Assembly: GCA_029251165.1 (NCBI GenBank)
Contig: JAQXDW010000054.1
Location: forward strand, 62,001 to 126,000
Source of the DNA: Myxococcota bacterium
GTDB lineage: Bacteria > Myxococcota_A > UBA796
Length of the DNA stretch: 64,000 nucleotides
Direction of reading: 5' to 3'
Below the pieces are notes generated by a model. That model ran no database searches. It worked only from the letters and a program-made list of their open reading frames with translations, and had not been told where the DNA came from. This document shows positions 1,491-14,228 of this stretch, in pieces. The position numbers were made by a program, and so were the translations under genes. Position 1 is the first letter of the stretch. Each line of letters begins with the position of its first letter.

Positions 1491-4325
1491 CTACGCACCG
1501 GGCTGTGATGCCTCAGCCGCTGCACCAACTTTGTAGCAGCACTTCTTGAACTTCTGGCCGCTGCCGCAGGGGCAGGGAGCGTTGCGCTTGAGGCCATTCT
1601 CCTTGGCGAAGCGGTATGCCTCGAGCCCCTTCTTTGGACGGGCGGGCGGAGGTGGCTTCTGCGCAAAGCCCGGCGGGGGAGCCATCGGAGTCGGCGGTGT
1701 GGCCCCTCCCGGACTGCGGGCGGCGAGCTGCTCCGGAGTGGGCGGAGCAAACGGGACCTGTCCCAGCTGCGGACGCTGGGGAGCGGCGCCGTTGCCGAGG
1801 AGGTTGCCGGCGGCCAGGCGCCGTGCGTTGCCCTTGGAGACTGAGGGAACCTGCTGGTCCGGTGAGAATTCCAGACGCAGAAGCTTGGAGAGCACCTGCT
1901 CGTCTCGCAGCGAGTTCATCAGCATGAACATGTCCGTGCCCTCGCGCTTGTACTCCAGCAGCGGGTTGCGCTGGCCATAGCCACGGAGGCCGATGCCGTC
2001 TCGGAGACGGTCCATCGCGAGGAGGTGATCCTTCCAGAACTGATCGGTGTGCTGGAGGAGCAGCATGCGCTCCAGCTCTCGGAGGTTGTCGGGGCCGACC
2101 GACTCTTCCTTCGCCTCGTACAGCGTAGTGGCGTCGGTGACGATGCGAGAGCGGATCTCATCGACGGCCATGTCTCGGAGTTCCTCCTCGGAGTCCTCCC
2201 AGTCGGCACCGAAGATCCTCAGGAAGGCCGTCTTTACACCGCCGACGTCCCAGTCTTCCGGGTGGGCTCGGGGATCGATGTGCTCGTCCATGACGTCGTC
2301 AGAGAGCTGCTCGATGATCTCCAGGACCATCTCGCGGATGTTCTCTCCGCCCAGCGCCTGCCGCCGCATCTTGTAGATGGACTGGCGCTGGAGGTTCATG
2401 ACATCGTCGTACTCCAGCAGCTGCTTGCGGATGTTGAAGTTGTGGCCCTCGACCTTCTTCTGAGCATTCTCGATGGAGCGGTTGATCCAGCGGTGCTCAA
2501 TGGGCTCGTCGTCTTCGAGTCCCATCTTCTCCATCCAGCCAATGATCTTGTCGGAGCCGAAGATCCGAAGGAGATCATCCTCGAGGCTGAGGTAGAAGCG
2601 GCTGGAGCCCGGATCACCCTGGCGACCGGCACGGCCCCGGAGCTGATTGTCGATTCGACGAGACTCGTGGCGCTCGGTACCGAGGATGTGCAGTCCACCT
2701 GCAGCCAGGACCTGCTCCCGCTCCTCTGCGCACTGTACAGACAGCCGCTCCTGAGTCGCCTCGAATGCCTCAGGCTGCTCGGCAGCATCCACCTCAAGCT
2801 TCGCGAGCCCTTCGGGATCGCCGCCGAGCTTGATGTCGGTACCGCGTCCGGCCATGTTGGTGGAGACGGTCACCCGACCGAGTCGACCGGCCTGCGTGAC
2901 GATCTCGGCCTCTCGAGCGTGGTTTCGGGCGTTGAGGATCTCATGCGGGATGCCGCGCTGGCGAAGGAGGCGGCTGACAATCTCCGACTTCTCGACGCTG
3001 ACCGTACCGACCAGCACCGGCTGTCCGCGCTTGTGCGACTCCTCGATCTCATCGAGCACAGCCCGGTACTTCTCGACCTGGGTCTTGTAGATGATGTCGT
3101 CGTTGTCCGCCCGGACGACCGGCTTGTTGGTCGGGATGGCGCGGACATCGAGGTTGTAGATCTTCTGGAACTCTTCTTGCTCCGTCAGCGCAGTTCCGGT
3201 CATGCCCGCCAGCTTCTCGTACATGCGGAAGTAGTTCTGGTAGGTGATCGAAGCGTAGGTCTGGCTCTCAGGCTCGACGTTGAGCTGCTCCTTCGCCTCG
3301 ATGGACTGGTGGAGGCCATCAGACCAGCGACGACCGGGCATGAGGCGACCGGTGTGCTCATCGACGATCATCACCTTGCCGGTCTTGACGACGTAGTCCC
3401 GATCCCGCTTGAACAGGGTGTGGGCCTTGAGCGCCTGGTTGACGTGGTGGAGGATCTCCATGTTGTGCTGATCGTAGAGGTTGCCGATGCCAAGCTTCAG
3501 CTCGACCTGATCCACGCCAGCATCGGTCAGGTTGACGCTGCGGCTCTTCTCGTCGACCACGTAGTCAATCTCCGCCTGGAGCAGCGGGATGACCTGGTCG
3601 ATGATCCGGTACTTCTCGACATCCTGGCTGGCAGGACCGGAGATGATGAGCGGCGTCCGGGCCTCGTCAACGAGGATGGAGTCGACCTCGTCAATGATCG
3701 CGAAGTGCGGCGGACGCTGGACGTAGTCCTCCATGCGGAACTTCATGTTGTCCCGGAGGTAGTCGAAGCCAAACTCGTTGTTGGTGCCGTAGGTAATGTC
3801 GGCGGCGTAGGCGATCTTCTTGGTCGCGGGGTTGCGGTCTGAGGAGAGGATCGCGCCGACCGTCATGCCCAGGAAGGTGTAGATCGCCGACATCCAGGCT
3901 GCATCGCGACTGGCGAGGTAGTCGTTGACCGTGATGACGTGAACGCCGCGCCCGGTCAGGGCATTGAGGTAGACCGGCATGGTCGCAGCGAGGGTCTTCC
4001 CCTCACCGGTCTTCATCTCCGCGACCATCCCCTGATGGATAACAATTCCGCCGAGGACCTGGACATCGTAGGGCCGCATGCCGAGAGTTCGGACGCTGAC
4101 CTCACGGACGAGGGCGTAGGCTTCTGGAAGGATATCGTCGAGCGACTCACCATTGGCGATGCGCGTCTTAAACTCCGGCGTCAGGGCCTTGAGGGCCTCG
4201 TCGGAGCGATCCTTCATCGACTGCTCGAGGTCCTTGACCCGAGAGACCAGCGGCATGAGCTTCTTCAGCTCCCGATCTGACCGGGTCCCAAAGACCTTGC
4301 CGACGACGGATTTGATATCGAACAT
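1491..4325 (-). CDS. secA: Preprotein translocase ATPase SecA
   Basis: Motor ATPase that pushes unfolded preproteins through SecYEG at the inner membrane. It is 944 aa, within the family range. The N-terminal DEAD-like motor has the Walker A segment MKTGEGKTLAA (about residues 105-115) and DEVDSILVDEARTPLIISGP. The helicase-like domain has STNMAGRGTDIKLGG and RGRAGRQGDPGSSRF. A Pro-rich linker leads to a C-terminal SEC-C zinc motif CPCGSGQKFKKCC, the SecB/ribosome-binding tail. The start ATG at 4325 has a GGAG site and the typical MFDIKSVVGKVFG N-terminus. It lies 95 nt downstream of an M23 peptidase gene. Confidence 0.98.
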   Translation of the reverse strand: MFDIKSVVGKVFGTRSDRELKKLMPLVSRVKDLEQSMKDRSDEALKALTPEFKTRIANGESLDDILPEAYALVREVSVRTLGMRPYDVQVLGGIVIHQGMVAEMKTGEGKTLAATMPVYLNALTGRGVHVITVNDYLASRDAAWMSAIYTFLGMTVGAILSSDRNPATKKIAYAADITYGTNNEFGFDYLRDNMKFRMEDYVQRPPHFAIIDEVDSILVDEARTPLIISGPASQDVEKYRIIDQVIPLLQAEIDYVVDEKSRSVNLTDAGVDQVELKLGIGNLYDQHNMEILHHVNQALKAHTLFKRDRDYVVKTGKVMIVDEHTGRLMPGRRWSDGLHQSIEAKEQLNVEPESQTYASITYQNYFRMYEKLAGMTGTALTEQEEFQKIYNLDVRAIPTNKPVVRADNDDIIYKTQVEKYRAVLDEIEESHKRGQPVLVGTVSVEKSEIVSRLLRQRGIPHEILNARNHAREAEIVTQAGRLGRVTVSTNMAGRGTDIKLGGDPEGLAKLEVDAAEQPEAFEATQERLSVQCAEEREQVLAAGGLHILGTERHESRRIDNQLRGRAGRQGDPGSSRFYLSLEDDLLRIFGSDKIIGWMEKMGLEDDEPIEHRWINRSIENAQKKVEGHNFNIRKQLLEYDDVMNLQRQSIYKMRRQALGGENIREMVLEIIEQLSDDVMDEHIDPRAHPEDWDVGGVKTAFLRIFGADWEDSEEELRDMAVDEIRSRIVTDATTLYEAKEESVGPDNLRELERMLLLQHTDQFWKDHLLAMDRLRDGIGLRGYGQRNPLLEYKREGTDMFMLMNSLRDEQVLSKLLRLEFSPDQQVPSVSKGNARRLAAGNLLGNGAAPQRPQLGQVPFAPPTPEQLAARSPGGATPPTPMAPPPGFAQKPPPPARPKKGLEAYRFAKENGLKRNAPCPCGSGQKFKKCCYKVGAAAEASQPGA

Positions 4326-4420
4326 GGATGCTCCAGTGAAAAGCCTCGCCGCTATGTGCTCCCCGAGAGGGCTTCGGTCAAGTCCTGAGGGAAGATAAAG
4401 GGCGTGCTGGGTGCAGGGAT

Positions 4421-5377
4421 TCAGTTCTCGATGAACTCCATCGGGTCGACAAAGTCGCCGTCGATGAGGATCTCGTAGTGAAGATGGGGGCCGGTCGACT
4501 GGCCGGTAGAGCCGACCGTTGCGATGAGATCACCGCGCAGGACGTCCTCGCCGACCGCAACCAGTCTCCGTGAGCAGTGCGCATAGCGAGAGACGATGCC
4601 GTCGCTGTGCTCGATCTCGATGAGGTTGCCGTAGCCAGCATGGTACTCCGAGAGGACGACCTCGCCGGCTCCGGAGGCGATAATCGGGGTGCCACGGGGG
4701 GCTGCGATGTCGATGCCGGAGTGCATCTTGTAGCGCCAGGTGACCGGAGAGCGTCTCATGCCATAGCCGCTGGAGAGCAGCCCACGAGCCGGCCAGATCG
4801 ACGGCATGGTCTGACGACGGATGCGCTCGGCGTTGACCTGATGGGCCATCGCAGGCTCGGCGAGCCGCAGCGTGACGAGGAGGCGCTCGGTGCGAGAGAG
4901 CAGGGCGTCGGCCTCCGTGAGCGTGCCGCTGTCGTCATCCATCGGCGGAGCCAGCTCACCGGGAAGGACCGCTCGTGGCGCCTCCGCGACTCGCCCGGAG
5001 GCCGCCATGTCTGCGGCATCGAGGGGACCCGCCCCAGAGATGGCGTCCAGCTCAGTGCGGTGAATTCTCATCTGCTCCAGGGCCTGCTCCGCCTCAGTGA
5101 CCGCCATCTCAAGCTCGGAGAGGTGAGCCTTGAGGGCGAGGTTCTCTTCAACCACGGGCCCATAGCCAAGCGGCCCGGTCACGCCCGCGAGGAGGCCAAC
5201 GCCGAGCAGGAGCACCATCACACCAGCTCCGCCGAAGAGTCGATGGAGACTGCGGCGGCTGAGGGTGAGCTGGCGGACAGCTCCCTTCCCCCGCTGTGGA
5301 ATGATCATCACGGTGAAGCCAGGCGGCGGCGGACGAACCTTCTGCGTGCTCTCTTTGGACTGGCTACCCAGCCTCAT
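4421..5377 (-). CDS. M23-family (LytM) peptidoglycan peptidase, membrane-anchored
   Basis: Predicted envelope metallopeptidase or LytM-type amidase activator, 318 aa. A cytoplasmic N-terminus of about 45 residues rich in Arg/Lys precedes one membrane segment (around GVMVLLLGVGLLAGVTGPLGY). A coiled coil follows (ENLALKAHLSELEMAVTEAEQALEQM). The M23 domain occupies the C-terminal 130 residues, with the zinc motifs HSGIDIAAP (HxxxD) and GPHLHYEI (HxH) intact, so it is probably catalytically competent. It overlaps the upstream PP2C gene by 14 nt, implying translational coupling. The family cleaves Gly-Gly or cross-link bonds or activates amidases; which of these applies here cannot be read from sequence. 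Confidence 0.9.
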   Translation of the reverse strand: MRLGSQSKESTQKVRPPPPGFTVMIIPQRGKGAVRQLTLSRRSLHRLFGGAGVMVLLLGVGLLAGVTGPLGYGPVVEENLALKAHLSELEMAVTEAEQALEQMRIHRTELDAISGAGPLDAADMAASGRVAEAPRAVLPGELAPPMDDDSGTLTEADALLSRTERLLVTLRLAEPAMAHQVNAERIRRQTMPSIWPARGLLSSGYGMRRSPVTWRYKMHSGIDIAAPRGTPIIASGAGEVVLSEYHAGYGNLIEIEHSDGIVSRYAHCSRRLVAVGEDVLRGDLIATVGSTGQSTGPHLHYEILIDGDFVDPMEFIEN

Positions 5378-6128
5378 CGACCCGGACGATCACGACGGTG
5401 ATGTTGTCGTCTCCGCCTCGTGTGCAGGCGAGATCGATGAGCTGACGGGAGGCCTCCTGGGGGGGGTAGTCCAGCACTGACTCTCCAATCTCTGCCGTCT
5501 CGACCAGGTTGGAGAGCCCGTCGGAGCACAGCACGTAGCGATCACCACGGCGGATGGCGTTCATCTGGATGTCGATCTCGACCTCTTCCATGTAGCCAAG
5601 GGAGCGGGTGATGATGTTCTTGAGGCGGTGGGTCTTCGCCTCCTCCGGAGTCATCAGGCCCGCTCGGATCCGCTCGTTGACCAGGGAGTGATCCTCCGTG
5701 AGCTGCTCGATACGGCCGTCGCGGACGAGGTAGCCACGCGAGTCTCCGACGTGCGCGATGAAGGCGTTGTTGTGATCGATGAGCAGCACGAGACAGGTGG
5801 TGCCCATCCCCTTGTACTCCGGCTCATCCTCCGCCTTCTCGAAGATCCGCCGGCCGGCCAGGCGCACGGCATAGCGAAGCTTCTCGCGCGTGAACTCGAC
5901 GGGGTTCTCGGACGGATCGATGCCGATGTCTTCCTCGCGGAATTCCATCGAGGTCAGGACTTCCTCGACGGTGTTCACTGCGATTGCGCTGGCAAACTCG
6001 CCGCCGACGTGACCGCCCATGCCATCACAGCAGACAAACAGGTTCAGCTCGTCGTTGATGAGGAAGTTGTCCTCGTTGTTGGTCCGCTTGACCCCAACAT
6101 CGGTCATGCCACATGAGGTGATGCGCAC
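5364..6128 (-). CDS. PP2C-family Ser/Thr protein phosphatase (Stp/PrpC-like)
   Basis: Metal-dependent cytoplasmic phosphatase, 254 aa, the usual size of bacterial PP2C enzymes paired with PknB-type kinases. Motifs in order: TDVGVKRTNNEDNF, CCDGMGGHVGGEFAS with the metal-binding DGMGG, HVGDSRGYL, TEDHSLVNE, CSDGLSN and GGDDNITVVIV. All metal-binding Asp positions are present. Translation starts at a GTG (6126-6128) behind a strong GAGGAGG site 5 nt away; the internal ATG has none. It overlaps the M23 gene downstream. A plausible opponent is the transmembrane kinase at 45.4 kb, but that is only inference. Confidence 0.93.
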   Translation of the reverse strand: MRITSCGMTDVGVKRTNNEDNFLINDELNLFVCCDGMGGHVGGEFASAIAVNTVEEVLTSMEFREEDIGIDPSENPVEFTREKLRYAVRLAGRRIFEKAEDEPEYKGMGTTCLVLLIDHNNAFIAHVGDSRGYLVRDGRIEQLTEDHSLVNERIRAGLMTPEEAKTHRLKNIITRSLGYMEEVEIDIQMNAIRRGDRYVLCSDGLSNLVETAEIGESVLDYPPQEASRQLIDLACTRGGDDNITVVIVRVDEAG

Positions 6129-6181
6129 TGGGGCCTCCTCTGATTCAGATCATCGCCAACTAACCCAGAGATGCTCCAAAC

Positions 6182-7012
6182 TCAAGCTTCCGGGAGGACC
6201 TCGGCCAGCCGCGAGACCTGTGCGGCAGTCAGCGTGCTGGCCCGAACGGAGCCATCGACGCCAGCCTCTTCCAGCCCATTCTTAACGATTGGAGCCGAGA
6301 ACGCCGTCCGAAGAGCATTGCGAAGGGTCTTGCGGGGTGCAGAGAATGCAGCGCGGTTTACGCGCTCGAACTGCTTGATGGAGGCGCTGCCGATCAGGGG
6401 CACTTCCCGGAGGCGCACCTCAATGACTGCGGAGTCCACCTTCGGCGGAGGGTGGAAGGCACCGGGCGGAACCCGGATGGCGATCCGAGCCTCGGAGAAC
6501 GCCTCCATGTGCACCGACAGGGATCCGCGCTTGCGGCTGCCTGCTGGCGCGACCATGCGCTCTGCGACTTCTCGCTGGAGCATCACCACCAGGCGGTCGA
6601 AGGTATCGGGAAGGACCACCATGGTGGTGACCAGACGGGTGCCGACGTTGTAGGGAAGGTTCGCCACACAGCGCCAGCCAGCCCCCGGCAGCACCGTCGG
6701 CCAGTCCACCTTCACCGCATCCGCCTCGATGAGGTTGAGGGTCGTGTGGCGCTCTCGCAGAAACGCGGCGAGATCACGGTCGAGCTCCACCGCAGTGACC
6801 TCTGCACCGACCGCCAGCAGGGCCTCTGTGAGAACGCCGAGCCCGGGACCGACCTCCAGCACGCGGCTCCCCTCCCCAACCCCCGAGGTCCGCACAATGC
6901 GCTGAACCGTCGGCGCGGAGGTGAGGAAGTGCTGCCCGAAGCGCTTGCGGGCAGTTCCTTGGAGCTGCCGGAGCAGGGCGGCAGGTCGGGTCGGGCTTCC
7001 GTCGGTGGTCAT
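6182..7012 (-). CDS. rsmA: 16S rRNA dimethyladenosine transferase
   Basis: SAM-dependent methyltransferase (KsgA family) that dimethylates two adjacent adenosines near the 3' end of 16S rRNA during 30S maturation; 276 aa. Motifs: KRFGQHFL near residue 23, SAM motif EVGPGLGVLTEAL, acidic motif AVELDRD, and the adenine-methyltransferase motif NLPYNV. The chosen ATG (7010-7012) shares its A with the tsaD stop in a TGATG overlap; a TTG one codon earlier is an alternative. Coupling to tsaD puts it at the end of a long operon of exporter and selenoprotein genes. Confidence 0.95.
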   Translation of the reverse strand: MTTDGSPTRPAALLRQLQGTARKRFGQHFLTSAPTVQRIVRTSGVGEGSRVLEVGPGLGVLTEALLAVGAEVTAVELDRDLAAFLRERHTTLNLIEADAVKVDWPTVLPGAGWRCVANLPYNVGTRLVTTMVVLPDTFDRLVVMLQREVAERMVAPAGSRKRGSLSVHMEAFSEARIAIRVPPGAFHPPPKVDSAVIEVRLREVPLIGSASIKQFERVNRAAFSAPRKTLRNALRTAFSAPIVKNGLEEAGVDGSVRASTLTAAQVSRLAEVLPEA

Positions 7013-8016
7013 CAAGTCCCCGGAGTCCAGGAGGAGCGTGCGGTCAGACCGAGGTCATCAGACTGCCCAGCCAGGAGGCGCAGCCGCCCCGCGTTTGCGA
7101 TCATCGCGCCATTATCAGTGCAGCGGCTCTTCGGGGGCATGAAGACCGACAGCGGCAGCGCGCTCATGGCTGCGCGCAGCTGGCTGTTTGCAGCGACACC
7201 CCCAGCAAGGGCGAGCTGCTTGACACCGGTCGCCTGGCTGGCGGCCAGCACTCGGGCACAGAGGACATCGACCACGGCAGCCTGAAACGACGCCGCAACG
7301 TCCGGGCCTGACCAGCCATCTGTGCGCTGCATGTAGGTGCGGACGGCCGTCTTGAGCCCCGAGAAGCTCATGTCCAGCGCAGTGCGAGGGCGACTGGATC
7401 CGCGGGTGAGGCTGCCGGGGGTGATCTCAATGCGGGGAAAACGAACAGCATCCGGGCGTCCCGTCTTTGCCATCGCATCGATAATCGGTCCGCCGGGGTA
7501 GCCCAGTCCCATCATCCGCGAGACCTTGTCGAACACCTCCCCTGCGGCATCGTCGACGGTCTGCCCGAGGACGGTGTAGTCCCCGAGACCACGGGCCAGG
7601 TAGAGGGACGTGTGACCGCCAGAGACGACCAGCGCCAGGAACGGAAACTCCGGCGCGGGGTCCTCCAGCAGCGGTGAGAGGAGGTGGCCTTCGAGGTGAT
7701 TTACCCCCACAAACGGCACCCCCCAGCCAGCCGCCGCCGCCTTGCCAAAGCACAGCCCGACCAGGACCGCACCCATCAGCCCCGGTCCGGCCGTCACCGC
7801 GACGCCATCGGGGCGCGCGATACCAGCGCGCTGCAGGGCCGCGCGGGTGGTGGTGACCACCTTCTCGGCGTGTGCGCGCCCCGCAAGCTCAGGGACCACT
7901 CCGCCGAATTTCTGGTGGATCTCCTGGGTATAGACCACATCAGAGCAGATCCCGTCCGGGCCGATCACGGCAGCGGCGGTCTCATCACAGCTGGTCTCGA
8001 TGCCGAGGACAAACAC
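7012..8016 (-). CDS. tsaD: tRNA N6-threonylcarbamoyladenosine transferase TsaD
   Basis: Transfers the threonylcarbamoyl group to A37 of ANN-decoding tRNAs, working with TsaB, TsaC and TsaE; 334 aa, normal for the family. Signatures: LGIETSCDETAAAV at the N-terminus, the metal-binding pair NHLEGHLLSPL, VVSGGHTSLYL, and ALAGGVAANSQLR. The start is a GTG (8014-8016) that abuts the stop of the upstream selenoprotein gene with no gap. Its partner tsaE lies elsewhere in this window at 37.0-37.5 kb. Confidence 0.96.
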   Translation of the reverse strand: MFVLGIETSCDETAAAVIGPDGICSDVVYTQEIHQKFGGVVPELAGRAHAEKVVTTTRAALQRAGIARPDGVAVTAGPGLMGAVLVGLCFGKAAAAGWGVPFVGVNHLEGHLLSPLLEDPAPEFPFLALVVSGGHTSLYLARGLGDYTVLGQTVDDAAGEVFDKVSRMMGLGYPGGPIIDAMAKTGRPDAVRFPRIEITPGSLTRGSSRPRTALDMSFSGLKTAVRTYMQRTDGWSGPDVAASFQAAVVDVLCARVLAASQATGVKQLALAGGVAANSQLRAAMSALPLSVFMPPKSRCTDNGAMIANAGRLRLLAGQSDDLGLTARSSWTPGT

Positions 8017-9528
8017 TCACTCTCCGTGCACGATCCGAGGGCGGTAGGTCGAGAAGTCGAACCGGCCCTCGTCTTGTACCCCGTCGTGGCAGACCACACA
8101 GGTGGACTCCGGCGGATCCGCGACCATCTGACCGACAGCCGGGGCGGAGACGTGTGTGCGACCGGGCCCGTGGCAGTCCTCACAGCCGACTCCAGCGAGG
8201 GCATCGGTGACCTGAGCGGGGTGCTGTGGCCCCTGAGGGTGGGTGGCGCCGGTGGCGTGGCAGGAGAAGCAGTCGAGGTCGCTGGTGCGCTCCTCGACCT
8301 GGAGGGTGGCCCAGGCCCGGGCGTGGCTGGTGCGCTGCCACTGGGCATACGGCTCCGCATGGCAGCCAGCACAGGCCGCGCTTCCGAGGAAGGGCGTGTC
8401 GACCAAGGGTGCAACCGCACCAGACTCCATCGCCTCAATCTCGGCCAGCGCGGTCGCCAGCAAGGCCTCGACCTGGGGGTGATCGGAGATCTTTCGATCC
8501 AGCGGCGCGAGCCGGCCCTTGAGGCTGTGTGCTGGCACATCCACCCTCTCGCGTAGCTGCAGAAGCTGGGCCTCGAGCGCCGCCAGCTCCTCCGTGTAGT
8601 GGCTGACCTTGCGCTCAGCCCGACGCTTCGCGCCGTCATCAGGTGGACTCTCGACGTTCTCCTGTGCAGTCTCCAGCCGCCCCTCGGCGCGGCGCTTCTT
8701 GCGCTCGAGGTCATCGATCGAGTCGGCGCTTGAGAAGCCGATGCCCCCAGGGGTCAGGATAATCTCTGCGAGTCCCAGCTTCTTGCCGCGAGAGCCGCTG
8801 GAGAGCTGGAGGGCGTTGTTGGGCAGCGCGCTGGGGTTGGTGCGGTTGAGGCGGGCGTGACCGTTGATGATGAGGTCGATGTCTGCCACCGCCTCTGCCA
8901 GGGCGACGTCTTCCTCGTTGGAGGTGTGCGTCATCGCGATGAGCAGGTCAACGTCCGAGAGCGCCCGAGCGGCAGCCTCCAAGGAAGCGATCGGATCGGA
9001 GACCGTGCATCCAGCGACCGTCCTGCGCTCGCTGAGCACACCGACAAGGCCCACAGAGATGCCGCCGCGCTCGACCCGACGCCAGCCCTCAAACGGGGCC
9101 TGACCGTCGCAGGAGAGGTTGGCGGCGAGCAGCGGAATCTCCCGCTGGTCAGCGGCCTCCTTCAGCCACTCGACCCCCAGCACGAGGTCTCCGACACCTG
9201 GCGCGACACCGTCGATGCCGCTGAGGGCGAAGGCATCGAGCTGTAGCTCAGCCTTCCGGCGCTGCTGCGGCAGGCGCTCGGGCGTGATGGTGCCGCTCTT
9301 CCAGGCGAAGTTGCCGGCATCTACCGTGACGTGCGTCCCGTCGAGATCCCCAATGATTGTCGCTCTTCTGGACAGACCGCCCATCGGGTTCTTCGGTCAA
9401 CCACAGGGCTCGATCTCGCCGTCGAGGTTGTTGGTGTAGACCACCGTGAGGTTGCGATCTCCAGCAGCCATGGGCGGCTCTGGCTCGCTGGTGCAGCCCA
9501 GCAGCGCCAGCATGGAGAAGAACCTCAT
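8017..9528 (-). CDS. UshA-like selenoprotein: metallophosphatase-like domain fused to a tetraheme cytochrome c, lipoprotein
   Basis: Predicted 503-aa lipoprotein whose frame contains a TGA (9397-9399, residue 44) read here as selenocysteine. The N-terminus MRFFSMLALLGC ends in a lipobox Cys12. A UshA/5'-nucleotidase-like N-domain follows (YTNNLDGEIEPCG-U-PKNP, later DAGNFAWKSG and INGHARL), then a charged coiled-coil linker, then a C-terminal segment with four CxxCH heme sites (CAGCH, CFSCH, CEDCH, CVVCH). The usual ATG call at 9384 would lack the signal peptide. The true start (9526-9528) overlaps the DUF4340 stop as ATGA. Cys homologues of this fold typically read EPCGC at this place. The first metal motif (normally NDxHG) is altered to NNLDG, so phosphatase activity is doubtful. 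A redox role for the C-G-U pair with the hemes is inferred. Confidence 0.88.
9369..9396 (-). promoter_or_regulatory. Bacterial SECIS element downstream of the UGA codon
   Basis: Immediately 3' of the in-frame TGA the minus strand carries a hairpin with stem TGGGC/GTCCA (9379-9383 with 9369-9373; one G-U pair) and the five-base loop GGTCT (9374-9378). Exactly 18 nt separate TGA from GGTCT. This equals the spacing and apical loop of the Escherichia coli fdhF SECIS as I remember it, which SelB recognises through the loop GU. The lower stem is irregular. Loop, stem and spacing are visible directly; SelB recognition is inferred. Confidence 0.82.
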
Positions 9529-11027
9529 GGCTGCTCCTCGTCGTCAGGGATGGCCTCGCTCGGGATCTGCTCCAGGTTGAGCGCACGCGCGGCATCCTTC
9601 TCAGCCTTGCGGTTGCGCTCCCGGACCATGTCTTTGACCGTCTTGATGGACTGATCGCTGACGAGGTAGACGGACGGGTCGCCCTCAATGGAGACAAACC
9701 GGCGGGGACGCTCGCGCCCCTCAGAGTCCACCAGGGGCTCGCCCTCGATGCCGATGAGGACAACGCGTGTGTTCTCGTCCCGATCGGTGAGGACCGCCCG
9801 CGCGACGGGCGGCGTGAGGCCATACTCCGAGAGGTCCTCGGGAGCATCATCGATGAAGACATCGACCTCAAGCTCTGCCAGAGAGCGGGTGGCACGGTCC
9901 GGGGTCGAGCCGTTCACCGGGACGCCGTCTTCCCAGACCCACTGCTCAGCGAGGTAGCGCACCCCGGCACTCCCCTCCAGGTCATCGTCCGCCTCCAGCG
10001 CCAGCTCCACATCGACCGCGACCACGTCGTCGGCCTTCATCTCGACCACGCGGCGGTTGCGAAGCTCTGAGGGGTCCTTCCCGAACTCCTCCAGCATGCC
10101 GCGCCGGGCGATGTAGACCGTATCAGGCTCGCTCTCCAGCCACATGTAGGCCATCTCTTCGAGGCGATTGTCGGTGGGGGCGTCGTCGCCGACGAGTACA
10201 TGAAAGGGCTCACGGGAGCCAAACTGAATGGTGATGTCCGCCCGAGGATTGTCGAGGCCAAACTCAGCCTTCTTGGCCTCCAGTTGCTCCGCAGGGACAT
10301 CGATGATGTCTCGGGCCTTCAGCGCAGAGACTCGTCCGAGCAGGCGCTTGACCCGATCGGTGTTGGCGACCATCTCGATGGGCTTGCGCATCTCCCAGGT
10401 CTGCTCGCCGACCAGGACCAGCTCCAGAAGCTGTGACTCGTCTCCAGCCAGGGTCGCGACAATGCCAGCGGCGTCTTTGGAGTCAAAGGTGGCGAACCGG
10501 GTCTCTCGGGCCAGCTTCGGATCGGTCAGCAGCAGCAGCCAGAAGTCGGAGGCAGACTTCTTGACGGTGTAGGCGAAGGCGTCCCCTTGTCGCTGGATGT
10601 AGTAGCTGACGTTGGTGGGGTTGGGATGACCGACGTCGAACTTCAGCTCGGTCCCATCTCGCAGGGTCAGGATGACCTTCGTGGAGAGCGCACCGAGACC
10701 ATACAGCTCCACATCAGCGGCATCCTCGAGCGTTGCCCGGGAGGTAAGATCGTGGATCTGGTGCTTGGCACGGTTGACCATCGAGCGGCTGGCGACCTTG
10801 TCTGTGCCGTCGATGAGCCACTGGGCGTCTTCCTCGATCAGCGCCACGGGCTCCTTGCCCGGCTGAGTGACCTCAATGCGGACCAGCTCATGCTTCTCAA
10901 AGGTAAACAATCGCTCGCCGTCGCCCTCCACACCAACGTCCACGGCAGGCGGCTTGAGCATAAAGACCACCCCGGCGACCAGCGCCAGGACAATCAGGGC
11001 CAGGATTGTGCCGCGGAATGCCTTCAT
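9525..11027 (-). CDS. DUF4340-domain membrane-anchored protein of the Gld-type exporter operon
   Basis: 500 aa. One N-terminal membrane anchor (about residues 7-25, ILALIVLALVAGVVFML) is followed by a large periplasmic region with repeated DUF4340-type strands such as WLIDGTDKVASRSMVNR, GLGALSTKVILTLRDGTELKFDVGH and PNPTNVSYYIQRQGDAFAYTV. No catalytic motif is seen. DUF4340 genes regularly accompany GldA/F/G-like ABC systems. It overlaps both neighbours by 4 nt (ATGA): the GldG-like gene upstream and the selenoprotein gene downstream. Function is unknown beyond this association. Confidence 0.85.
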   Translation of the reverse strand: MKAFRGTILALIVLALVAGVVFMLKPPAVDVGVEGDGERLFTFEKHELVRIEVTQPGKEPVALIEEDAQWLIDGTDKVASRSMVNRAKHQIHDLTSRATLEDAADVELYGLGALSTKVILTLRDGTELKFDVGHPNPTNVSYYIQRQGDAFAYTVKKSASDFWLLLLTDPKLARETRFATFDSKDAAGIVATLAGDESQLLELVLVGEQTWEMRKPIEMVANTDRVKRLLGRVSALKARDIIDVPAEQLEAKKAEFGLDNPRADITIQFGSREPFHVLVGDDAPTDNRLEEMAYMWLESEPDTVYIARRGMLEEFGKDPSELRNRRVVEMKADDVVAVDVELALEADDDLEGSAGVRYLAEQWVWEDGVPVNGSTPDRATRSLAELEVDVFIDDAPEDLSEYGLTPPVARAVLTDRDENTRVVLIGIEGEPLVDSEGRERPRRFVSIEGDPSVYLVSDQSIKTVKDMVRERNRKAEKDAARALNLEQIPSEAIPDDEEQP

Positions 11028-12490
11028 CGTCCTCTCCTCGTCCGCCAGACCAGCACTCCAAACAGCAGCACCAGCATGGGCATCAGGCCGAGGCTGAGCA
11101 GCCGCAGGGTGCCCAGCTCTTCACGGGTGATCGCCAGCCGACGCACAGTCGCGGTCCTGCCCCCCCCGAACGCCAGCCGCTTGTCCTCGCCGGCCAGCCA
11201 GTGAATCTGGTTGACCGCGAGCAGGGCGTTGCCTGGTCCCTCATCGATGAGGGCGTTGGTGAACATGTCCGCATCGCCGATGACCGAGACCCGACCGGGC
11301 GGACGGGTGGAGCGGACAAGGCCCTTGCCTGGAAAGATGGTGACGGCGGTCGCGACGGTCAGGGGACCGGCGCCGTCGATGTCCTTGTCGTAGACCGGGC
11401 GGCCCTCACGGGACTCTCCGCCGCGCTCGATCCAGCCGGTCCGAGACGTCGCCAGCAGATCCTCGTAGCGTACCCCCGGGGGAACCGGGTCTGCGGTACG
11501 AATCGGCGCGACATGCGCGAGGATCGGAGTGAGCTTGCTCGCGGCGATCTCAGCGGTGATGTCGTGGGACTTGACCAGCAGCTCAGGCCGATCCCAGCTG
11601 GGGAAGATGTAGCGCTCATCGAGCACCACACCGTCGGGAACGGTCACGCCGACGCGGGTGAGGATGTCGGGAACCGGAGTCCCCACATCGACAGCGACCA
11701 GGATCGCACCGCCGCGACCGAGGTAGCTGAGCAGGATGTCGTCTTCCTGCGGCGTCAGTGCGGCGCGAGGCCGAGCGACAAACACGGCAGCCGCATCGTC
11801 GGGTACCTGGGGAATTTCGCCGTCGCGACCGGTGCTGAGGAGGTCGAGAGCGAGCAGATCGTACCGCTCCTGATCGAGCAGGGCGGAGAACTGGCTGAGT
11901 CCGTCGGGACCGACATCATCGACCGACAGCTCGCCGTGACCGGTGAGGACGTAGACCGCCCGCCGAGACTCCGTCATCAGCTGCGCGAAGCCACGGGACA
12001 AGGCCGCCTCGCCCATGAACTCCATGTAGCGATCAGCGCCGCGTCCGGCGCGTCGGAACAGCTTTCGATCCTTGATGTCGACCCGCTCCTCACCCCGCTG
12101 GATGACGATGCGGCCGTAGTCGTTGACGCCCAGGCGCTCTGCGGTCAGCCGCTCCTTGTCGAAGTCGACCAGTCGCCAGGTGACGGAGGTGGAGTGGTTG
12201 TCGATCTCACGGAGGAGATCGCGCACCTCACGGTTCTTAAAGTAGGCGTCATCCTTTCCATTCTGCGCGGTAAATGCCGTGATCGTGACAGGAACGCCGT
12301 CCGAATCGAGCAGCCGCAGCTTGGAGAGGGTGTCTGGCTGGAGCGTGTTGGAGGCCCCCTCCGAGAAGTCCCACCGCACCCGATACTGATCGGAGAGGGT
12401 GTAGAGCAGCCCGAAGACCAGCACAACGATCACGGTGACCAGGGTGGCGTTTCCGCCGAAAGCCAGCCGACGCCTCAGTGACTGCTTCAT
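11024..12490 (-). CDS. GldG-like ABC-associated auxiliary protein
   Basis: 488 aa. N-terminal membrane segment (about residues 14-34, ATLVTVIVVLVFGLLYTLS), a large periplasmic ABC_transp_aux/GldG-type domain (SNTLQPDTLSKLRLLDSDGVPVT, ALDLLSTGRDGEIPQVPDD, PRAALTPQEDDILLSYL), and a C-terminal membrane helix (LGLMPMLVLLFGVLVWRTRR). Together with the ATPase and permease it forms the three-part Gld-like exporter. The start at the ATG ending at 12490 overlaps the permease stop as ATGA and has GGAGG 5 nt upstream; a GTG at 12496 is less likely. The substrate is unknown. Homologues are needed for gliding in Bacteroidota, but most relatives lie in non-gliding genomes. Confidence 0.85.
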   Translation of the reverse strand: MKQSLRRRLAFGGNATLVTVIVVLVFGLLYTLSDQYRVRWDFSEGASNTLQPDTLSKLRLLDSDGVPVTITAFTAQNGKDDAYFKNREVRDLLREIDNHSTSVTWRLVDFDKERLTAERLGVNDYGRIVIQRGEERVDIKDRKLFRRAGRGADRYMEFMGEAALSRGFAQLMTESRRAVYVLTGHGELSVDDVGPDGLSQFSALLDQERYDLLALDLLSTGRDGEIPQVPDDAAAVFVARPRAALTPQEDDILLSYLGRGGAILVAVDVGTPVPDILTRVGVTVPDGVVLDERYIFPSWDRPELLVKSHDITAEIAASKLTPILAHVAPIRTADPVPPGVRYEDLLATSRTGWIERGGESREGRPVYDKDIDGAGPLTVATAVTIFPGKGLVRSTRPPGRVSVIGDADMFTNALIDEGPGNALLAVNQIHWLAGEDKRLAFGGGRTATVRRLAITREELGTLRLLSLGLMPMLVLLFGVLVWRTRRGR

Positions 12491-13200
12491 CTCCACCTCC
12501 TCGACTCAACGCTGCGCCAGGTAAAGAACAGGAAGAGGAGGGTAAACATGGCAAACCAGACGACGTCAGAGGTGTCGATGACCCCACGGACGAACGACTC
12601 CATGTGGGTCGACAGGGCGAGGTGCCGCAGCAGGGTGCGCAGCCACTCGATCTCAACCAGCTCCGCGCTGTTGCCGGCCAGCCAGAACGGCAGGAGGATG
12701 ACCACCCCGCCGAGTCCTGCAGCGACCGCTTCATCGGTAAGGCTTGAGGAGAACATGCCCGCAGCGACAAACGCGCCGCAGCACAGCAGGAGCCCGAGGT
12801 AGCTCGTCGCGATGACGCCCCAGTCCGGGTCTCCGTAGTACTCCAGCAGGAACGGAAACAGGAAGGTCCCGGCCAGCAAGATCGCACACAAGGCGAGGCT
12901 GGAGAGCCACTTGCCCGCCAGCAGCGCCCAGAGGGGTACCGGCGCGGTCATCATCAGCTCAAAGGTACCAGCGCGCTGCTCCTCCGCGAAGTGACGCATG
13001 GTCAGCAGCGGCAGCAGGAACATCAGGGTGATGGAGAGGTTGCCCAGCATGACCCGCAGGCTGGCTTCTCCGGTCATCGAGACGCCCAGGTAGAAGAACA
13101 GTCCGGCGAGCAGCAGGAACACTCCGAGGAAGACATAGGCGAGCGGGCTGACAAAGTAGACCCGCATCTCCTTCTTGAAAATCGCCCATGCGACGCTCAA
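12487..13200 (-). CDS. ABC-2 type permease, GldF-like
   Basis: 237-aa inner-membrane permease with about six hydrophobic helices (for example LAYVFLGVFLLLAGLFFYLG, LSITLMFLLPLLTM and FAMFTLLFLFFTW) and the family segment MRHFAEEQRAGTFELMMTAPV between helices 2 and 3. It starts at a TTG (13198-13200) overlapping the ATPase stop as TTGA, with GGGAGGG 5 nt upstream. It would pair with the ATPase at 13197-14129 and the GldG-like protein downstream. Confidence 0.9.
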   Translation of the reverse strand: MSVAWAIFKKEMRVYFVSPLAYVFLGVFLLLAGLFFYLGVSMTGEASLRVMLGNLSITLMFLLPLLTMRHFAEEQRAGTFELMMTAPVPLWALLAGKWLSSLALCAILLAGTFLFPFLLEYYGDPDWGVIATSYLGLLLCCGAFVAAGMFSSSLTDEAVAAGLGGVVILLPFWLAGNSAELVEIEWLRTLLRHLALSTHMESFVRGVIDTSDVVWFAMFTLLFLFFTWRSVESRRWR

Positions 13201-14129
13201 CGTTCCCTCCCAACGATCTTCAGAAATGCCTCTTCCAGGCTGGGTGAGACCTTCTCCATCGCCTTGATCTGCCAGCCGTTCTGCGTGGCAAGTCCAGCGA
13301 TGGCGGTCCGAGGGTCACCCGGGGCATGGACAATGAGCTCCTGGAAGCCCTCGGTGTGCCCACCAGGGGTGACCGTATCAACGGCGCCGAGATCAGAGAC
13401 CAAGACCGCGAGGTTGTCGCCTTCGCTGCCCTTGAGGGCAATGCGATACCGCACCCCGCCGCCCCCCTTGCTGCACACCTCATCGAGGGATCCGTCTGCG
13501 ACGATCTTGCCCTGGTTGATCATCACAACCCTCGGGCAGATGCGCTCGACCTCAGGAAGGATGTGGGTGGAGAGGATGACCGTTCGGCGGCTGGCGAGGT
13601 CGACGATGAACTCTCGGATGCCGACCACCTGCGTCGGATCGAGCCCCGAGGCCGGCTCGTCGAGGACAAGAACCTCCGGATCATGGATCACCGCTTGGGC
13701 CAGCCCGACACGCTGTCGGTAGCCCTTCGAGAGCGAGCCAAGGATGCGGTTCTCCCAGCCGGAGAGCCCGACCAGCTCCATCACTTCGCCGATGCGTGTC
13801 GTACGCTTCGATGAAGGAATCCCCCGAATCTCGGCGATAAACTTTAGGTATACCCCGATACTAAGCTCGGGATAGAGCGGCGGAGTCTCGGGGAGGTAGC
13901 CGACCTTCTTGCGGACAGACATCGAGTCTTCGAACACATCGTGGCCGGCCACCATCGCCCGCCCCTCAGAGGCTGGCAGGAAGCCCGTCAGGATGCGCAT
14001 GGTCGTGGTCTTACCAGCCCCATTGGGACCGATGAAGCCGATAATTTCGCCCTTCCCGACTTCAAAAGAGACGTCATTCACCGCGGTGAAGCCGCCGAAG
14101 CGCCGGGTGAGATTTTGCGCTGAGATCAT
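13197..14129 (-). CDS. ABC transporter ATPase, GldA-like
   Basis: 310-aa cytoplasmic ATPase that energises the exporter encoded by the next genes. Walker A GPNGAGKTTTMRIL, signature LSKGYRQRVGLAQA, Walker B VLVLDEPASGLDP and the H-loop STHIL are all intact. A C-terminal regulatory extension of about 90 residues matches GldA/CcmA-type ATPases. The start MISAQNLTRRFGG (ATG ending at 14129) fits the family although no strong ribosome site precedes it; the frame stays open to a GTG at 14165. First gene of the coupled operon running to rsmA. Confidence 0.92.
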   Translation of the reverse strand: MISAQNLTRRFGGFTAVNDVSFEVGKGEIIGFIGPNGAGKTTTMRILTGFLPASEGRAMVAGHDVFEDSMSVRKKVGYLPETPPLYPELSIGVYLKFIAEIRGIPSSKRTTRIGEVMELVGLSGWENRILGSLSKGYRQRVGLAQAVIHDPEVLVLDEPASGLDPTQVVGIREFIVDLASRRTVILSTHILPEVERICPRVVMINQGKIVADGSLDEVCSKGGGGVRYRIALKGSEGDNLAVLVSDLGAVDTVTPGGHTEGFQELIVHAPGDPRTAIAGLATQNGWQIKAMEKVSPSLEEAFLKIVGRER

Positions 14130-14228
14130 GGGTCTGTGTTTTGTCTCTACGGAGCAGTGCGCCACGGTGCGTCACGCAAGGGCGTGGAGCATAACCCAGA
14201 CCGCGCGACCAGCGAGGCAGAGGGTTAC

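Follow-up and report, generated by a model that had tools for sequence, protein, structure and literature searches.

Selenoproteins related to UshA (COG0737) have been recognized in bacterial selenoproteome surveys, as the original prediction for this locus pointed out. The marine GOS survey (PMC2398784) includes 76 of them in its table, where their motif is given as CxU, and its discussion places UshA-like proteins outside the families whose Cys-based redox motifs are conserved. Of two reviews, PMC9312934 includes UshA-like selenoproteins, and PMC13188914 lists by accession the profile NF041198, "UshA-like (seleno)protein," and also NF049981, "UshA-like (seleno)protein family 2," the latter as CxxU. 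In the available sections of these three papers, no function is stated for the NF041198 family, and neither hemes nor gene neighbors of the UshA-like family are mentioned. Two further selenoproteins, ExtKL (NF040886) and MccSep (PDB code 9wt8 and others), are multiheme c-type cytochromes.

We find that the window, by which we mean the whole 64,000-nucleotide stretch of DNA that was analyzed, encodes a protein that very probably contains Sec and belongs to the already described UshA-like PCGU family NF041198 (Table 1). The match is nearly full length (residues 19 to 492 against positions 16 to 518 of the 519-position profile), the P-C-G-U/C motif is present, the heme region falls inside the profile alongside the UshA-like domain, Sec or Cys stands at the same place in relatives, and we found no feature that would exclude the protein from the family. 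With the COG0737 selenoproteins, as these are presented in the available sections of the three papers, it shares both the UshA-like character and CxU. By contrast, although NF049981 has a similar UshA-like domain, the window protein scores 32 bits against its cut-off of 140, and the likeness to the multiheme selenoproteins is weak and confined to the heme region (ExtKL, 22.6 bits against a cut-off of 250; MccSep, 21.6 bits). A search of the window's genome for ExtKL-type relatives gave seven matches, none over the cut-off.

Table 1. Features of the selenoprotein locus (positions in the window; neighbor frequencies refer to the 55 class Sec loci besides the window, counted where there is room on the contig)
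Feature	Position	Strand	Evidence
UshA-like PCGU selenoprotein CDS, complete, 503 aa plus stop, predicted Sec at codon 44	8017..9528	-	NF041198, 305.2 bits with Sec scored as Cys (cut-off, 275)
Lipoprotein-type leader with LLGC (Cys12)	9493..9528	-	Sequence; lipobox-like motif in 51/56 class Sec members
In-frame TGA, predicted selenocysteine codon (Sec44, motif EPCG-U)	9397..9399	-	TGA in window and 55/60 class loci; Cys in other 5 and in L052 and L053
Candidate bacterial SECIS hairpin, stem U+GGGC / GUCC+A round loop GGUCU (loop 9374-9378, 18 nt after TGA)	9369..9383	-	Wobble positions fixed in Sec, not in Cys members; all 55 testable members pair a stem, in one or other of two registers
UshA-like (5'-nucleotidase/SoxB fold) domain, degenerate metal-ligand positions; limits approximate	8749..9453	-	hmmsearch to 3ivd, 2z1a, and SoxB; Foldseek; ligand columns
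c-Type cytochrome region with four hemes, resembling cytochrome c554; CXXCH motifs at 8359-8373, 8257-8271, 8170-8184, and 8086-8100	8071..8376	-	PF13435, 1.7e-14; 1bvb, 9.3e-17
TsaD gene, begins directly after selenoprotein stop	7012..8016	-	Same-strand neighbor in 38/51 loci
DUF4340 protein, overlaps selenoprotein start by ATGA	9525..11027	-	PF14238, 4.8e-38; upstream in 38/51 loci
GldG-like ABC auxiliary protein	11024..12496	-	PF09822, 4.9e-16; TIGR03521, 4.1e-9, below cut-off; 35/48 loci
GldF-like ABC permease	12487..13200	-	TIGR03518, 3.5e-46, below cut-off; 35/48 loci
GldA-like ABC ATPase	13197..14165	-	TIGR03522, 1.4e-89, below cut-off; 34/47 loci

The reading frame starts at an ATG (9528 to 9526), passes through the TGA at codon 44, and closes at a terminal TGA (8019 to 8017), so that residues 41 to 44 read P-C-G-U if the internal TGA is decoded as Sec. 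Residues 1 to 12 (MRFFSMLALLGC) form a short lipoprotein-type leader, and a loose pattern recovers a comparable lipobox-like motif in most class Sec members. The plain open reading frame (ORF) list begins the gene at 9384, giving 455 aa. The minus-strand frame through the TGA with its EPCG-U motif, the overlap of the start with the preceding stop as ATGA, the lipoprotein signal, and the start that a standard gene caller would choose had all been put forward in the original prediction, and each was borne out. The cut at 9384 removes both the leader and the active-site motif of the selenoprotein gene. Because an ORF caller starts there, a gene with a Sec member, as judged by sequence, in 56 of 71 class genomes is easily misannotated.

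The class-wide counts derive from a six-frame search of 71 genomes of the window's class with the NF041198 profile, in which the window itself scores 297 bits; 52 of the 71 genomes yield no match over the cut-off, so that the class sits at the edge of the profile. Each of the best 50 rows of this search, the window's own included, contains exactly one TGA. From the listed rows we chose 60 class loci, namely the 49 best besides the window's own and 11 others that are long or TGA bearing; L050 and L051, whose site sequences are the same as those of L070 and L090, were left out of the counts. The TGA recurs at the codon following PCG in 55 of these 60 loci, each from a different genome, and Cys takes its place in the remaining 5, as it also does in two homologues from outside the class set (L052 and L053). 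When the window, the 60 class loci, and these two homologues are aligned, position 44 forms a single column, occupied by Sec in 56 of the 63 sequences and by Cys in the other 7. This result favors the predicted hidden Sec codon, for which homologues with neither Cys nor Sec at this residue had been named as grounds for rejection. Cys42 is kept in 55 of the 56 Sec members and Gly43 and residue 44 in all of them, and the sequence is conserved on both sides of the TGA. Among 20 same-phylum loci, 15 have Cys (14 plus L129) and 4 have TGA, with L136 left out. A midpoint-rooted FastTree phylogeny built on 82 sequences unites all 56 Sec members of the class (support, 0.92) and separates them from the Cys forms and the four other Sec forms. 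On the evidence of these sequences, the recurrence of TGA at one codon, with Cys as its replacement, is more than chance. Some of the 15 class genomes without a verified Sec member hold TGA-bearing partial matches to the profile (e.g., G014 and G057). One Sec member, L113 (UshA match, 6938 to 8038), has the motif EPTG-U, in which Thr replaces the Cys of C-x-U while the UGA is retained.

The hairpin downstream of the window's TGA matches the E. coli fdhF SECIS in loop and spacing. In the window, GGTCT (9378 to 9374), flanked by GGGC and GTCC, begins 18 nt past the TGA, in agreement with the predicted geometry. With the TGA numbered 1 to 3, 55 of the 56 Sec members have GGTCT as the loop (positions 22 to 26), and the remaining one has GGACT. 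The SECIS case rests on wobble positions that are fixed although the protein does not require them. The second Gly codon (22 to 24) is GGT in 55/56 Sec members versus 1/20 Cys members (L052 and L053, both without this Gly, excluded), and GGT makes up 288 of 2539 Gly codons (11.3%) in the downstream parts of the Sec members' genes; the preceding Gly codon (19 to 21) is GGC in 55/55 readable Sec members, and base 30 is C in 56/56. Because the Sec members are related by descent, these counts do not represent independent events. Of the 55 testable Sec members (L062, with an N within the stem, left out), 46 form the stem in register 18-21/27-30 and 9 form it in register 19-21/28-30, part of this pairing (the GG and CC letters) being forced by the protein sequence. 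Hairpin energy alone is not significant and not decisive. The 43-nt stretch from the TGA has a z score of -1.43, 17 of 200 shuffles fold as well, and the fold of lowest energy for this stretch pairs other bases; two longer stretches round the window's element give -0.55 (66 nt) and 0.18. Against a synonymous-codon null, 31% of synonymous versions of the window's own site sequence reach an equal or better folding energy; across 55 members, with the window's codon table used for all, the mean z score is -1.34 and only 19 fall under 5%. RNAalifold on the 56 members returned two pairs only, perhaps owing to the existence of two stem registers, and an Rfam search over 8900 to 9700 with E values up to 5 returned four matches, all at chance level and all away from the hairpin.

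The window's genome, a draft assembly whose 152 contigs total 8.0 Mb (completeness, 90.75%; contamination, 7.75%), encodes the machinery that Sec insertion would need. Absence of selB or selC had been named as grounds for giving up the selenoprotein interpretation; all four genes looked for are present, with SelA at 501.3 bits (cut-off, 267.9), SelB at 311 bits (cut-off, 242.25), SelD at 353.9 bits (cut-off, 125), and tRNA-Sec (selC) at 65.3 bits (gathering score, 47), the same tRNA being called by ARAGORN with anticodon tca (UCA). Across the class, selA tracks the Sec member loosely: among the 56 genomes that have a verified member, 4 (all drafts) show no selA match, as do 4 of the 15 that have none.

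The C-terminal part of the window protein contains the four heme sites that had been predicted, as CXXCH motifs beginning at Cys 386, 420, 449, and 477, and the Pfam cytochrome c554 domain covers residues 385 to 454. The original prediction considered the combination of Sec with four hemes unusual. This did not hold: four CXXCH motifs are the rule in the family, occurring in 53 of the 56 class Sec members, and the NF041198 profile itself spans the heme region. All seven Cys members aligned with them also have four, and among 14 Cys forms outside the class, 10 have four CXXCH after the site and 4 have three. Three class Sec members (L109, L111, and L113) retain PCG- or PTG-UGA and the GGTCT loop and lack CXXCH; CXXCH is likewise lacking in four Sec relatives from outside the class in the same phylum (L137 to L140). 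Hemes are therefore not required for the Sec part. In three of these four relatives (L138 to L140), the site reads DPCG-UGA-AHNPLGG, with the loop GGTCT.

The selenoprotein gene lies in a minus-strand run (1491 to 14165) with the order GldA-GldF-GldG-DUF4340-UshA(Sec)-TsaD-KsgA-PP2C-M23-SecA, in which we take the products TsaD, KsgA, PP2C, M23, and SecA to be such from their sequences; this gene order is kept in several class loci (e.g., L061, L062, L066, and L081). Across the 55 class Sec loci besides the window, Gld-like and DUF4340 genes recur upstream on the same strand, and TsaD downstream, at the frequencies given in Table 1, and KsgA is found downstream in 37 of 48 loci with room, the limits for room being our own choice. 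The selenoprotein could conceivably be a working part of the adjoining GldA/GldF/GldG/DUF4340 export system, a reading we regard as doubtful. Most of the class Sec loci that have room share both order and strand, the start overlaps the DUF4340 gene in the window, and two heme-less Sec members (L109 and L113) occupy the same Gld/DUF4340 slot. However, DUF4340 is missing in 13 of 51 loci with room, including all 6 with room among the eight loci that lie outside the taxonomic order of the window (L054 to L060 and L064), all of which have TsaD downstream and no Gld set. Moreover, tblastn with the window proteins found none of the Gld, DUF4340, TsaD, or KsgA neighbors beside the five Cys class paralogues and no Gld/DUF4340 set within ~7 kb of the 20 same-phylum loci (some contigs end sooner), where single weak neighbor matches occur in three only (L122, L129, and L132). 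That housekeeping genes take part in the conserved order points to simple inheritance, and the Gld/DUF4340 link may be nothing more than that. A fuller version, which strikes us as slightly less likely still, would assign to the class Sec UshA-like lipoprotein the redox function in an ABC export system of the Gld type, with the lipoprotein as a heme-wired C-x-U oxidoreductase on an ex-phosphoesterase scaffold, acting on what the transporter moves or assembles.

The N-terminal half was predicted to be UshA-like, and both sequence and structure comparisons agree. An hmmsearch with a five-sequence alignment matched solved 5'-nucleotidases (3ivd and 2z1a), SoxB, and cytochrome c-554, and Foldseek recovered 5'-nucleotidases and SoxB (e.g., 3ive, 2.9e-14; 2wdf, 6.9e-12) from a weak structure model (mean pLDDT, 64.8; residues 35 to 50 and 412 to 503 below 50). 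Thus, UshA and SoxB share the fold of this half, whereas the window's family has no conserved metal-ligand columns and has C-x-U and a tetraheme region instead. In the alignment to 3ivd, the D-x-H pair corresponds to N34 and D36, the next Asp to N73, the N-H pair to V112-G113, and the later His residues to H201 and H224, columns whose ligand roles we presume from the motifs of UshA-type enzymes. An Asp at 73 is found in 18 of the 56 Sec members. A selenoprotein in which the UshA-like domain has remained a metal-dependent phosphoesterase or a hydrolase of the SoxB kind, with Sec as an accessory, would fit the fold, the remote sequence match, and the retention of Asp70 (54/56), Gly72 (56/56), and an acid at 114 (56/56; Asp in 49 and Glu in 7). 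We nonetheless hold it to be quite unlikely, since the ligand His is kept in 3/56 Sec members at position 36, 3/56 at 113 (N-H pair), 15/56 at 201, and 14/56 at 224 (GH His), as we assign these columns via 3ivd and UshA motifs. Because the ligand columns vary while Cys42, Gly43, and residue 44 are kept, we infer that hydrolysis has been lost and that C-x-U is the working center.

A redox selenoprotein, the reading that we prefer, would work as follows. SelB carrying Sec-tRNA would bind the GGUCU hairpin and insert Sec44. The product would be an exported, lipidated protein of 503 residues, with an N-terminal half of the 5'-nucleotidase/SoxB fold from which the metal ligands are largely gone. 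Cys42 and Sec44 would form a C-x-U redox center near the old active site, and the C-terminal cytochrome c554-like tetraheme region would serve as an electron wire to or from it. Such a redox role with a heme wire seems to us somewhat more likely than not; our best guess for the substrate is a small sulfur, selenium, or other oxidized compound, either periplasmic or located at the outer membrane. As far as we searched, the frequent gene order GldA-GldF-GldG-DUF4340-UshA(Sec)-TsaD-KsgA, the decayed phosphoesterase metal ligands, and the heme-less Sec variants are new. A literature search for DUF4340 with GldG found no paper, one on MccSep yielded a single unrelated paper, and among the matches listed for Gld genes in myxococcal bacteria, none concerned selenoproteins in its title or the start of its abstract. 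The NF041198 family thereby gains two leads, the loss of phosphoesterase ligands beside a kept C-x-U and the frequent Gld-type ABC neighborhood.

The TGA might also be a true stop or a sequencing error, leaving a 43-residue stub or a protein that starts at ATG 9384. The 455-aa ORF from that ATG and the draft state and contamination of the assembly would suit such an explanation, but we consider it very improbable, given that the same TGA stands in the other class loci, all from different genomes, with Cys in the exceptions and conserved flanks, and that a protein begun at 9384 would have neither the leader nor P-C-G, which is kept in 55 of 56. Scarcely credible is a UGA read as another residue, such as Trp, through a changed code or a suppressor: one gene open only through its TGA would look alike, but the selenoprotein gene and the gene upstream both terminate in TGA, homologues have Cys and not Trp, a tRNA-Sec with anticodon UCA is present, and the GGT loop codon goes with the Sec members, and a changed genetic code was rejected on these grounds.

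In the class paralogue L110 (site 7052), the codon is a Cys codon (TGT), and the DNA still reads GGTGGTCTTGCC, with a SECIS-like loop; this loop may be a remnant of a Sec form, although L110 groups with the Cys forms in the phylogeny. The SelD match in the window's own genome (L018; G000:C24:43452-44375) contains one in-frame TGA within a 658-residue open frame, so that this SelD is probably itself a selenoprotein, perhaps with an extra domain.
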